Source: Chitinophagales bacterium
GTDB taxonomy: Bacteria; Bacteroidota; Bacteroidia; Chitinophagales; Chitinophagaceae
Assembly (NCBI GenBank): GCA_015654695.1
Contig: JAATGJ010000059.1
Span: 1-47,073, forward strand
Length of the DNA stretch: 47,073 bases
Reading direction: 5' to 3'
The notes under the pieces were generated by a model, which was not told the origin of the DNA, searched no databases, and saw only the letters and a program-made list of their open reading frames with translations. Below are positions 1 through 1,229 of the stretch, in pieces (the first letter of the stretch is position 1; every line of letters starts with the position of its first letter). Both the position numbers and the translations under genes were made by a program.

Positions 1-84
1 CTTTATTCGCCGTTCTTTATTCTCAGTCATACCAACATAAATGTAGTTTCTGGTTAAGCTATTAAGCGCATAGACGTAAAACAT
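1..84 (-). CDS. GIY-YIG endonuclease domain protein, second copy, cut by the window edge
   Basis: Minus-strand reading from the ATG at 84 gives the same first 28 residues as the complete gene at 280-528, including the YVY and YVG signatures of the GIY-YIG fold. The remaining two thirds lie outside the window, so I cannot say whether this copy is intact. It sits 23 bases after the hairpin that follows the broken tRNA-Leu copy, the same spacing as in the intact unit. The product would be a small nuclease-fold protein as described for the complete copy. Confidence 0.8.
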   Translation of the reverse strand, partial: MFYVYALNSLTRNYIYVGMTENKERRIK

Positions 85-106
85 GGCATTTGAAGAATTA
101 AAAGTT

Positions 107-136
107 AAAGCCGAAGTAATAAGTACTTCGGCTTTT
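107..136 (-). terminator. Hairpin after the broken tRNA-Leu copy
   Basis: The arms AAAGCCGAAGTA and TACTTCGGCTTT form a 12-bp stem with a 5-base loop. It is identical to the hairpin at 551-580 and lies just 3' of the tRNA pseudogene on the minus strand. The tail after it is T-poor, so termination is inferred from position and stem strength. Confidence 0.6.
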
Positions 137-153
137 TAGTGCCCGAGATCGGA

Positions 154-173
154 CCTGCCTGCCGGCAGGCAGG
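154..173. repeat. 20-bp perfect palindrome in the T-loop of the tRNA copy
   Basis: The sequence CCTGCCTGCCGGCAGGCAGG is its own reverse complement. The bases on either side join seamlessly into the intact tRNA-Leu sequence, so this is a clean 20-bp insertion with no visible target duplication. Confidence 0.9.
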
Positions 174-204
174 ATCGAACCGATACATCCTTGCGAACGG
201 CAGA

Positions 205-224
205 CCTGCCTGTCGGCAGGCAGG
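205..224. repeat. 20-bp near-palindrome at the anticodon loop of the tRNA copy
   Basis: Same element as 154-173 with one change (T for C at 213). It is inserted cleanly between the last anticodon-loop base and the first base of the 3' anticodon stem of the disrupted tRNA-Leu. Confidence 0.9.
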
Positions 225-248
225 TTTTGAGTCTGCTGCGTCTGCCAA

Positions 249-268
249 CCCGCCCGCGAACAAGCGGG
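249..268. repeat. GC-rich hairpin block at the D-loop breakpoint of the tRNA copy
   Basis: The block CCCGCCCGCGAACAAGCGGG can fold with CCCGC pairing to GCGGG. It is a different sequence from the other two palindromes but the same length, and it sits where homology to the intact tRNA ends, in the D-loop. Whether it is an insertion or a rearrangement junction is not decidable here. Confidence 0.6.
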
Positions 269-279
269 ATGTATAATAA

Positions 280-528
280 TTATTGCAAAGATTTCAGAGT
301 TTGCTTCAGAAATTCTTTTCCGACTCCTGACTTTAGAAATTTTTCTCTTTTTCTTGCTTCTATTCTTGTTAAAAATTCTTCGGTATAGAACAAAACAAAT
401 GGTCGGTAAGGTGCTGTAGTTTTATTATTCCCATTTTGATGTTGCTTTATTCGCCGTTCTTTATTCTCAGTCATACCAACATAAATGTAGTTTCTGGTTA
501 AGCTATTAAGCGCATAGACGTAAAACAT
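280..528 (-). CDS. Small GIY-YIG endonuclease-domain protein
   Basis: An 82-residue protein that is essentially one GIY-YIG nuclease domain. The N-terminus has the paired YVYAL and YIYVGMT strands, followed by the Arg-containing helix (KERRIKQHQNG). The C-terminal half has FLTRIEARKREKFLKSG, where the Glu of EAR is the usual metal-binding position. Family members resemble the UvrC N-terminal domain and are annotated as excinuclease-like or putative endonucleases; their cellular role in Bacteroidota is not settled. It lies directly downstream of the tRNA-Leu and hairpin and is part of a 444-base tandem unit. I infer the nuclease fold is functional; a substrate cannot be named. Confidence 0.88.
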   Translation of the reverse strand: MFYVYALNSLTRNYIYVGMTENKERRIKQHQNGNNKTTAPYRPFVLFYTEEFLTRIEARKREKFLKSGVGKEFLKQTLKSLQ

Positions 529-597
529 GGCATTTGAAGAATTAAAAGTTAAAGCCGAAGTAATAAGTACTTCGGCTTTTCAGTGCCCGAGATCGGA
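445..597. repeat. Direct repeat, copy 2 of the tRNA-Leu/GIY-YIG unit
   Basis: Partner of 1-153. Here the unit is intact: a whole tRNA-Leu, the hairpin at 551-580 and the complete GIY-YIG gene. The repeat period of 444 bases therefore spans one tRNA, one terminator-like hairpin and one small endonuclease gene, all read on the minus strand. Confidence 0.95.
551..580 (-). terminator. Hairpin between tRNA-Leu and the GIY-YIG gene
   Basis: A 12-bp stem (AAAGCCGAAGTA with TACTTCGGCTTT) and 5-base loop begin four bases after the tRNA 3' end on the minus strand. It probably ends the tRNA transcript or acts as a processing signal, and it separates the tRNA from the endonuclease start at 528. Confidence 0.7.
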
Positions 598-667
598 ATC
601 GAACCGATACATCCTTGCGAACGGCAGATTTTGAGTCTGCTGCGTCTACCAATTCCGCCACCCGGGC
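584..667 (-). tRNA. tRNA-Leu (CAA)
   Basis: The 84-nt minus-strand sequence folds as a class II tRNA. The acceptor strand GCCCGGG pairs with CTCGGGC (one G-U). The D-stem is GCG/CGC with TTGG in the loop. The anticodon arm is GCAGA-CTCAAAA-TCTGC, giving anticodon CAA for UUG leucine codons. There is an extended variable arm, and the T-arm is ATCGG-TTCGATT-CCGAT. The discriminator base is A and the CCA end is not encoded. It starts 21 bases after the hscB stop codon in the same direction, so it may share a transcript with hscB. Confidence 0.96.
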
Positions 668-688: not shown

Positions 689-1198
689 TTACGCCTTTCC
701 GCTTAATTGATGTCTTATACGGTCTAAATATTTTTTCTTGTAATAGTATTCTTTTACCTGCAGCAACTCTTTTTCGGAAGTAGTATCTTCCTGGTAATTT
801 GTAATAATCTTTTTAACAGGTTCATATATTTCATTTTGCATGGCGTCAATCGCCGTTTTTAAATTGTCAATGGCCCCCTGGTCTTCCGCATCCATTAATT
901 GTTCATTTATTTCCAGCACTTCCATTAAGAAACCAGGCGGCAGCTCATATTTTTCTTCTTCTTCCAGCAGACCCTTTTGTTGTAAAACATATTTGATCGT
1001 TTCATCAGGATTTTTAAAAGCTTTATAAGCCTTATTTAATAAGGCTGATTTTTCCAATGATTCAGACTGGGCCTCCGTATTATCATTCACAAAATAATCC
1101 GGGTGATATTTCCGGCTTAATTCAAAAAACTTTTTATGCAGGGATGTTATGTCAACTTTTAACTGTACGGGTATCTCAAATAGTTCAAAATAATTCAT
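689..1198 (-). CDS. hscB: HscB, J-domain co-chaperone for Fe-S cluster assembly
   Basis: HscB delivers the IscU scaffold to the HscA chaperone and stimulates its ATPase during iron-sulfur cluster transfer, in the cytoplasm. The 169-residue protein opens with MNYFELFEIP, has the J-domain HPD motif at residues 32-34, and continues with the acidic C-terminal helical domain (LLEEEEKYELPPGFLMEVLEINEQL) that binds the scaffold. I chose the ATG at 1198; a TTG seven codons upstream is open but is not conserved in the family. It is divergent from the saccharopine-dehydrogenase-like gene and ends 21 bases before tRNA-Leu. No other isc genes are in the window. Confidence 0.93.
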   Translation of the reverse strand: MNYFELFEIPVQLKVDITSLHKKFFELSRKYHPDYFVNDNTEAQSESLEKSALLNKAYKAFKNPDETIKYVLQQKGLLEEEEKYELPPGFLMEVLEINEQLMDAEDQGAIDNLKTAIDAMQNEIYEPVKKIITNYQEDTTSEKELLQVKEYYYKKKYLDRIRHQLSGKA

Positions 1199-1199
1199 C

Positions 1200-1229
1200 T
1201 TGCTGCTCTGCTTTTTCAAATTACATTTG
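1200..1229 (+). promoter_or_regulatory. Bacteroidota-type promoter of the saccharopine-dehydrogenase-like gene
   Basis: TTG at 1200-1202, a 19-base spacer, and TACATTTG at 1222-1229 match the TTG/TAnnTTTG promoter form of this phylum. The predicted transcript would start near 1236 and carry a leader of about 65 bases. It overlaps the start of the divergent hscB gene, so the two may interfere. Confidence 0.6.

Follow-up and report, generated by a model that had tools for sequence, protein, structure and literature searches.

A tandem tRNA-Leu and GIY-YIG nuclease unit, with relatives beside many kinds of bacterial tRNA gene, suggests an undescribed kind of selfish element living off tRNA genes

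The repeated unit beside hscB

The stretch of DNA analysed here, referred to as the window, represents the whole of contig C132 (positions 1–47073; 47,073 nucleotides) of a genome of 5.42 Mb in 187 contigs. At the start of this contig, read along the minus strand, hscB is followed by tRNA-Leu(CAA), a terminator-like hairpin, a gene for a small GIY-YIG nuclease, a pseudo-tRNA-Leu, a second copy of the hairpin and the beginning of a second copy of the nuclease gene (Table 1). The direct tandem unit described in the first-pass annotation of this region was borne out, positions 1–153 being 99% identical to positions 445–597 at a spacing of 444 bp. The one-domain nuclease gene that it had called was likewise recovered, and its second nuclease copy does leave the window, being cut by the start of contig C132. 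The statement that tRNA-Leu is present twice had to be corrected, as only one tRNA is found by ARAGORN and the left copy is a hairpin-bearing pseudogene. Using the intact tRNA-Leu as a query of its own genome, one full-length match of 100% identity was obtained, with the other two full-length matches at 76% identity.

Table 1. Features at the beginning of the window, with the evidence for each
Feature	Position	Strand	Basis
hscB	689–1219	-	ORF and domain match
Intact tRNA-Leu(CAA)	583–667	-	ARAGORN; Rfam RF00005, 56.4 bits on L002
Terminator-like hairpin, between tRNA and nuclease gene	551–579	-	Inverted-repeat output and sequence
Nuclease copy 1, complete (one GIY-YIG domain, 82 aa)	280–528	-	PF01541, E=1.2e-15
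CCCGC-GAACAA-GCGGG palindrome, pseudo-tRNA edge on nuclease side	253–268	.	Read from sequence
Pseudo-tRNA-Leu (tRNA-Leu copy broken by palindromes)	139 to ~254	-	Alignment; no ARAGORN tRNA call
20-bp palindrome, end of pseudo-tRNA anticodon loop, one base off perfect	205–224	.	Exact insert, without target-site duplication
20-bp palindrome in pseudo-tRNA T loop	154–173	.	Exact insert, without target-site duplication
Terminator-like hairpin, copy 2	107–135	-	Direct-repeat comparison
Beginning of nuclease copy 2 (28 codons up to the contig start)	1–84	-	Direct-repeat comparison

The two 20-bp palindromes of the pseudo-tRNA are of the CCTGCCTGCCGGCAGGCAGG type, for which 0.00 occurrences are expected by shuffling (search with up to two mismatches). 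The nuclease gene lies outside any intron or intein and is a free-standing gene downstream of hscB and tRNA-Leu. No integrase or recombinase gene was found in positions 1–667, where the longest other ORFs are of at most 66 aa and overlap the tRNA and the repeat, and with no other gene-sized ORF in the unit there is also no Y1 transposase (RAYT) gene within it. A group I intron was rejected for the window by Rfam scan, RF00028 not being detected at any of the nine own-genome nuclease loci (L001–L009). When 18 loci were scanned subsequently, a group I intron was found in L055 alone (positions 2258–2500; RF00028, 100.7 bits), after a tRNA-like 5' part and directly beyond a window-type nuclease gene; the intron and the cassette may share a site there.

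The encoded protein of 82 aa is matched by PF01541 with 58 bits over residues 1–67, and its catalytic-type residues Y5, Y16, G18, R26, E50 and E62 are invariant in 19 aligned rows. With this fold and the Tyr, Tyr, Arg and Glu residues of catalytic type, it is a member of the GIY-YIG nuclease superfamily. The AlphaFold2 model (mean pLDDT 93.8) consists of one small domain, the nearest folds to which are UPF0213, SLX1 and then the catalytic domain of I-TevI, none of them with an E value below 0.001, while the best solved relative by sequence is the UPF0213 protein 1ywl (E=4.9e-6). Weak homing-endonuclease matches were returned by PHROGs and no match by NCBIfam. A phage origin was rejected, no match to the protein being found at an E value of 1e-3 in a phage collection of 50,697 records. 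A separate DNA-binding region beyond the catalytic domain is absent from this single-domain protein, and for this reason the unit is called homing-like here and not a seg gene.

The first-pass annotation had also suggested that the array may be longer than what the window holds, and contig C75 (L129) was found to carry a further unit end. There, the 3' end of one nuclease gene precedes a pseudo-tRNA whose palindrome is slightly altered, and beyond this a further nuclease copy begins, of which 17 codons match before unrelated DNA is reached. C75 is the far end of the window array, which has at least three units in all. As its pseudo-tRNA differs in the palindrome and is followed by a nuclease start of its own, collapse of a single unit cannot explain the array. 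Three single-contig genomes each possess one called tRNA with five nuclease copies, these arrays being associated with tRNA-Leu (450-bp period, neighbours 98–99% identical, plus a partial sixth copy), tRNA-Met (period of about 365 bp) and tRNA-Asp (period of 315 bp). The concern that the second copy could be an assembly artefact was thus dismissed, with the window array lying on two contigs and such arrays occurring in three single-contig genomes. At L076 and L022, a second or third tRNA copy is still called as a tRNA.

Small GIY-YIG genes beside tRNA genes

Nine PF01541 matches (L001–L009) were identified in the own genome of the window, and at three of these loci ARAGORN calls a tRNA-Met, a tRNA-Leu and a tRNA-Lys 37–54 nt before the domain. 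By reading, palindrome-bearing pseudo-tRNA pieces lie beyond the nuclease at L001, L002 and L005, and tRNA-like remnants flank it at L003, L004 and L009, of which Rfam backs only the cut-off tRNA in L009; no tRNA was called at L006, L007 and L008. At L001 (approximately 1212–1343, nuclease-oriented), two more tRNA-Met 5' parts occur upstream of the intact tRNA, their anticodon arms replaced by hairpins and with no nuclease gene between them.

A PF01541 search was conducted on 39 genomes, including the own genome, and 84 small GIY-YIG matches were kept among the matches listed, leaving out those listed with frames of approximately 416–966 aa (UvrC-like and others, identified by length). An intact tRNA lies within 150 nt of 45 of these 84 listed matches (43 loci in 16 of the 39 genomes, representing 12 tRNA kinds), and nuclease and tRNA are co-oriented in all 45. 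These results lend strong support to the earlier claim of a nuclease travelling with its adjacent tRNA, and the architecture of the window recurs at many tRNA kinds. The other 39 of the 84 listed matches have no tRNA called within 150 nt, 10 of them with under 300 nt available on one flank, and they include a separate supported clade (99/97) of 15 small GIY-YIG rows with no tRNA called in the flanks of any member. GIY-YIG genes far from tRNAs, which the first-pass annotation had named as a point against its idea, do accordingly exist in relatives, but they do not refute the association.

Two phylum scans with protein queries, of 345 genomes each, gave matches in 208 and 218 genomes. Of the 60 loci taken from these scans, 51 hold one or more nuclease ORFs lying no more than 220 nt from a tRNA (55 of 87 ORFs), and all 62 tRNA–nuclease pairs are on the same strand; the other nine loci, some of which are interior members of arrays, have no tRNA at this distance. 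The window protein, when compared with named genomes, yielded 20 loci in Bacteroidota, Ignavibacteriales, CPR groups and two unclassified records. In 17 of these the nuclease lies within approximately 100 nt of a called tRNA, which is a tRNA-Leu in 14 of the 17. With a tRNA-Met(CAT)-linked protein as the query, the 17 best loci (L176–L192) were all tRNA-Met(CAT) units, 16 being assigned by tRNA call and L180 via the array head in L207.

The nuclease tree was constructed from 81 proteins and 92 columns, with L105, L009 and L104 left out as being unlike the rest or fragments, and 27 of its 77 inner forks are open. Labels were tested on 45 loci of 12 tRNA kinds with a tRNA limit of 220 nt, a set which differs from the 45 linked matches defined at 150 nt. 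The tRNA kind requires 20 changes on this tree, while shuffled labels require 32.7 on average and never fewer than 28 (0 of 2000 shuffles at or below 20), and the genome label requires 33 changes against 33.2 when shuffled (1123 of 2000 at or below). For 28 of the 45 loci, the closest protein from a different genome sits beside the same tRNA kind, with 4.0 expected. The nuclease phylogeny tracks tRNA kind and not genome, of which vertical inheritance of loci could partly be the cause.

Orthologous hscB–tRNA loci with and without the unit, a comparison proposed by the first-pass annotation, were both found to exist. hscB was found in nine of the 29 genomes searched, followed by tRNA-Leu(CAA) in all nine, and a nuclease is present at this site in two (G000 and G005) and absent in seven (at one surveyed locus, L120, only approximately 340 nt beyond the tRNA were available). 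The nucleases of G000 and G005 fall in different lineages of the tree, and the site is one that has been entered by two nuclease lineages. The tRNA-Leu of the occupied G005 is identical to that of the unoccupied G002, so that a nuclease guided by the tRNA sequence alone would also attack the tRNA gene beside it. Self-protection therefore cannot lie in the tRNA alone, and either recognition needs the flank or there is some other block.

The window protein is 64% identical to a protein in a Wolfebacteria record and 54% identical to its best match elsewhere in its own genus, which has an internal stop, and host-to-host transfer would fit these values better than descent alone. The dN/dS ratio was calculated for 12 hand-chosen pairs, 11 of which are tRNA-linked. 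It ranges from 0.06 to 0.21 in six of the 11 (some of these values being rough, with dS above 1), dS being saturated in the other five, and is 0.07 in the twelfth pair, taken from the clade without tRNAs. The nuclease is under purifying selection.

Partial tRNA copies and their palindromes

Pooling of the surveys gave 191 nuclease rows (counted before a duplicate locus was dropped) and 119 tRNA-linked units in 113 loci; some loci hold more than one unit and the units are thus not all independent. One locus had been fetched twice (L147 being L063) and was dropped, reducing the counts from 120 and 94 to 119 and 93. A pseudo-tRNA copy was counted at a score of at least 34, a threshold set by eye, and on this basis a partial copy of the same tRNA is found across the nuclease in 93 of the 119 tRNA-linked units, the other 26 having no copy that reaches this score, in one case because too little sequence was available. 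The partial copy keeps its outer end in 83 of the 93 and its nuclease-side end in 11. In type A units (tRNA, nuclease, copy; n=65) the 3' end of the copy is kept in 57 and the nuclease-side end in 10, and in type B units (copy, nuclease, tRNA; n=28) the 5' end is kept in 26 and the nuclease-side end in one. With the outer end kept and the nuclease-side end mostly lost, the copy resembles what is left of the outer part of a tRNA gene after splitting.

A GC-rich perfect hairpin is present in 71 of the 93 pseudo-tRNAs, compared with 7 of 93 intact tRNAs and 56 of 1860 equal control windows of the same loci. Among 76 inserts of at least 8 nt, 41 touch a loop, compared with approximately 36% of junctions (computed with the duplicate locus included), and 38 are hairpins by themselves, compared with 9.0 after shuffling. 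Certain places of insertion recur, namely the D-loop/D-stem boundary in type-B Arg copies (10 of 12), the 3' anticodon stem in Met copies (7 of 24) and the T loop in Leu (5 of 17), Ser (4 of 9) and, by reading, Glu copies (4 of 4); related copies may here share one old insertion. Exact 20-bp inserts occur at D, anticodon and T loops without target duplication. In the pseudo-tRNA-Ser T loop of L155, L159 and L163 there are two consecutive hairpins, recalling mitochondrial double-hairpin elements.

The palindrome core was found in 12 of the 39 genomes, mostly away from nuclease units. In G000, G006 and G020 the core CCTGCCTGCCGGCAGG, often in its full 20-bp form, is dispersed away from nuclease genes (L107–L116, L126–L145), and no nuclease match was found in the 21 distinct stretches with dispersed copies that were examined (23 loci, two fetched twice; more copies exist). 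An intact tRNA-Pro in L109 and an intact tRNA-Gly in L116 are each immediately preceded by the 20-bp palindrome (at position 1501 in both), with no nuclease match nearby, and these palindromes are possibly the footprints of lost units. The palindrome was rejected as a simple proxy for nuclease activity, given that the counts disagree and that the 21 dispersed stretches lack a nuclease match.

Proposed mechanism, competing readings and known systems

We consider the unit to be a selfish cassette of homing type, to which we assign a probability of roughly 60%: without an intron, it would use tRNA genes as its site, split the tRNA gene, restore it via a carried half and amplify. The small GIY-YIG nuclease would cut its own kind of tRNA gene, much as the first-pass annotation had suggested that it may cut tRNA-Leu genes and promote copying of the unit, and repair would copy in the nuclease gene together with one tRNA half. 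This would reconstitute a working tRNA on one flank of the insert, while the outer half of the original gene, pushed to the other flank, would persist as the pseudo-tRNA, in agreement with the anatomy observed. The nuclease gene follows or precedes the tRNA and is always co-oriented with it in the linked units seen, and given this constant orientation the two are probably expressed together by read-through. Direct tRNA repeats would allow break-induced recombination, from which the observed tandem arrays may have grown. In the weakest step of this scheme, the pseudo-tRNA hairpins would probably destroy the cleavage site or block mispairing with the working tRNA. In favour of the homing reading are the co-oriented tRNA linkage, the partial copies with their outer ends kept, the tracking of tRNA kind by the nuclease lineages, the two lineages at the hscB site, the low dN/dS values and the arrays in single-contig genomes. 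Several observations count against it: there is no added DNA-binding module, the nearest folds are UPF0213 and the structure-specific SLX1, 26 of 119 units have no copy, 39 of 84 matches (among those listed) and 9 of 60 loci have no tRNA nearby, and G005, which is occupied, has the same tRNA-Leu sequence as the unoccupied G002.

The UPF0213 and SLX1 folds also speak for a rival reading, in which the protein would be an SLX1-like structure-specific nuclease with short hairpins or cruciforms as its true substrates. The pseudo-tRNA hairpins would then be its mobile partners, as REP is for RAYT, and the tRNA, being rich in hairpins, would serve as a landing pad. The concentration of GC-rich hairpins in pseudo-tRNAs (71 of 93), the exact 20-bp inserts at three loops without target duplication and the presence of the core, chiefly outside the units, in 12 of 39 genomes are in keeping with this. 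We nevertheless regard it as unlikely, since G013 has 10 PF01541 matches and zero copies of the core, G020 has 28 pattern matches (both strands) and four PF01541 matches (in both genomes, among the matches listed), no nuclease match occurs at any of the 21 dispersed stretches, and the tracking of tRNA kind by the nuclease lineages is left unexplained.

Somewhat less probable again is a domesticated host gene, with the cassette serving the cell through, for example, tRNA-locus amplification or decoys against anticodon nucleases or phages. Each of the three single-contig five-copy arrays has a single called tRNA, so amplification there adds no tRNA dose (L076 and L022 are counter-examples), and the hscB site is occupied in only two of nine genomes. 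A service to the cell would, however, agree with the purifying selection, the conserved active-site-type residues and the tandem arrays beside tRNA genes, and it has a precedent in SegB, whose amplification of tRNA-Tyr serves phage T6 (PMC13096335). It is improbable that small GIY-YIG genes are simply tolerated at safe intergenic positions next to tRNAs and inherited vertically, with the pseudo-tRNAs being ordinary decayed tandem duplicates. Such passive neighbours would not be expected to lie on the same strand in 45 of 45 cases (among the matches listed), to face a same-tRNA copy that obeys the outer-end rule in 83 of 93, to cluster on the tree by tRNA kind and not by genome label, or to represent two lineages at one syntenic site, nor would the other clade be expected to have 0 of 15 tRNAs. 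In favour of passive inheritance, many kinds of element commonly insert at tRNA 3' ends, and the saturation of dS in five of 11 tRNA-linked pairs indicates that many of the associations are old.

Returning to the homing-type cassette, a more far-reaching form of this reading can be put forward only tentatively and we hold it to be doubtful. According to it, the units would constitute an undescribed and widespread class without intron or integrase in Bacteroidota, Ignavibacteriales and CPR, with lineages largely dedicated to one tRNA kind, in which a nuclease of fewer than 100 residues would act on tRNA-shaped or hairpin DNA, split a tRNA gene, regenerate it from the carried half, mark the left-over half with palindromes placed by its own action and expand in arrays. 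If the homing reading is right, a selfish nuclease able to restore the very gene that it interrupts is lodged at chromosomal tRNA genes of distant bacterial phyla. This would account for orphan GIY-YIG genes by tRNAs, for unusual tRNA pseudogenes and for tandem repeats at which assemblies break, and it would provide a bacterial counterpart to SegB as well as a natural system for asking how short palindromes insert without target duplication. No description of the unit in bacterial chromosomes was found in the open-licence full-text literature as judged by title or abstract start, an absence that is not proof, and the related nucleases beside many tRNA kinds in other bacteria suggest an undescribed kind of selfish element.

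Elements that integrate into tRNA genes (islands, phages and ICEs) restore the tRNA with a part that they carry and leave a truncated copy at the far end. The truncated far-end copy is shared by the units described here (outer end kept in 83 of 93), but the window unit differs in that no integrase was seen and in its 82-aa GIY-YIG gene, its length of 444 bp and its tandem arrays. RAYTs are Y1 transposases with REP palindromes as their partners, and the likeness lies in short GC-rich palindromes forming single or double hairpins; the window unit is without a Y1 transposase gene, however, and the hairpins of the cassette are enriched in tRNA copies. The GIY-YIG domains of UPF0213 (1ywl, 1zg2) and SLX1 are the nearest solved sequences and folds to the window protein, which is nevertheless unlike SLX1, a eukaryotic nuclease of branched DNA with SLX4 as its partner. 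One homing nuclease reportedly has a tRNA gene as its target, as the cassette would, but the cassette differs in having no group I intron at L001–L009. I-TevI and the Seg enzymes possess a separate DNA-binding region beyond the catalytic domain, which the window protein lacks, and seg proteins are longer than it. Repetitive hairpin and double-hairpin elements of mitochondria (PMC2800124) are similar in being short GC-rich palindromes with single or double hairpins, those of the cassette being enriched in tRNA copies.

The closest documented behaviour is that of SegB of T-even phages, which promotes tandem amplification of a 718-bp unit of tRNA-Tyr and segB, for which its authors propose microhomology (PMC13096335); intronless homing is likewise described for seg genes (PMC2988022). 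Both systems thus have an intron-less GIY-YIG nuclease beside tRNA genes and tandem amplification. SegB belongs to phage whereas the window unit is chromosomal, and the reported SegB repeat carries tRNA-Tyr, whereas the duplicated tRNA in window-type units is mostly broken by hairpins.
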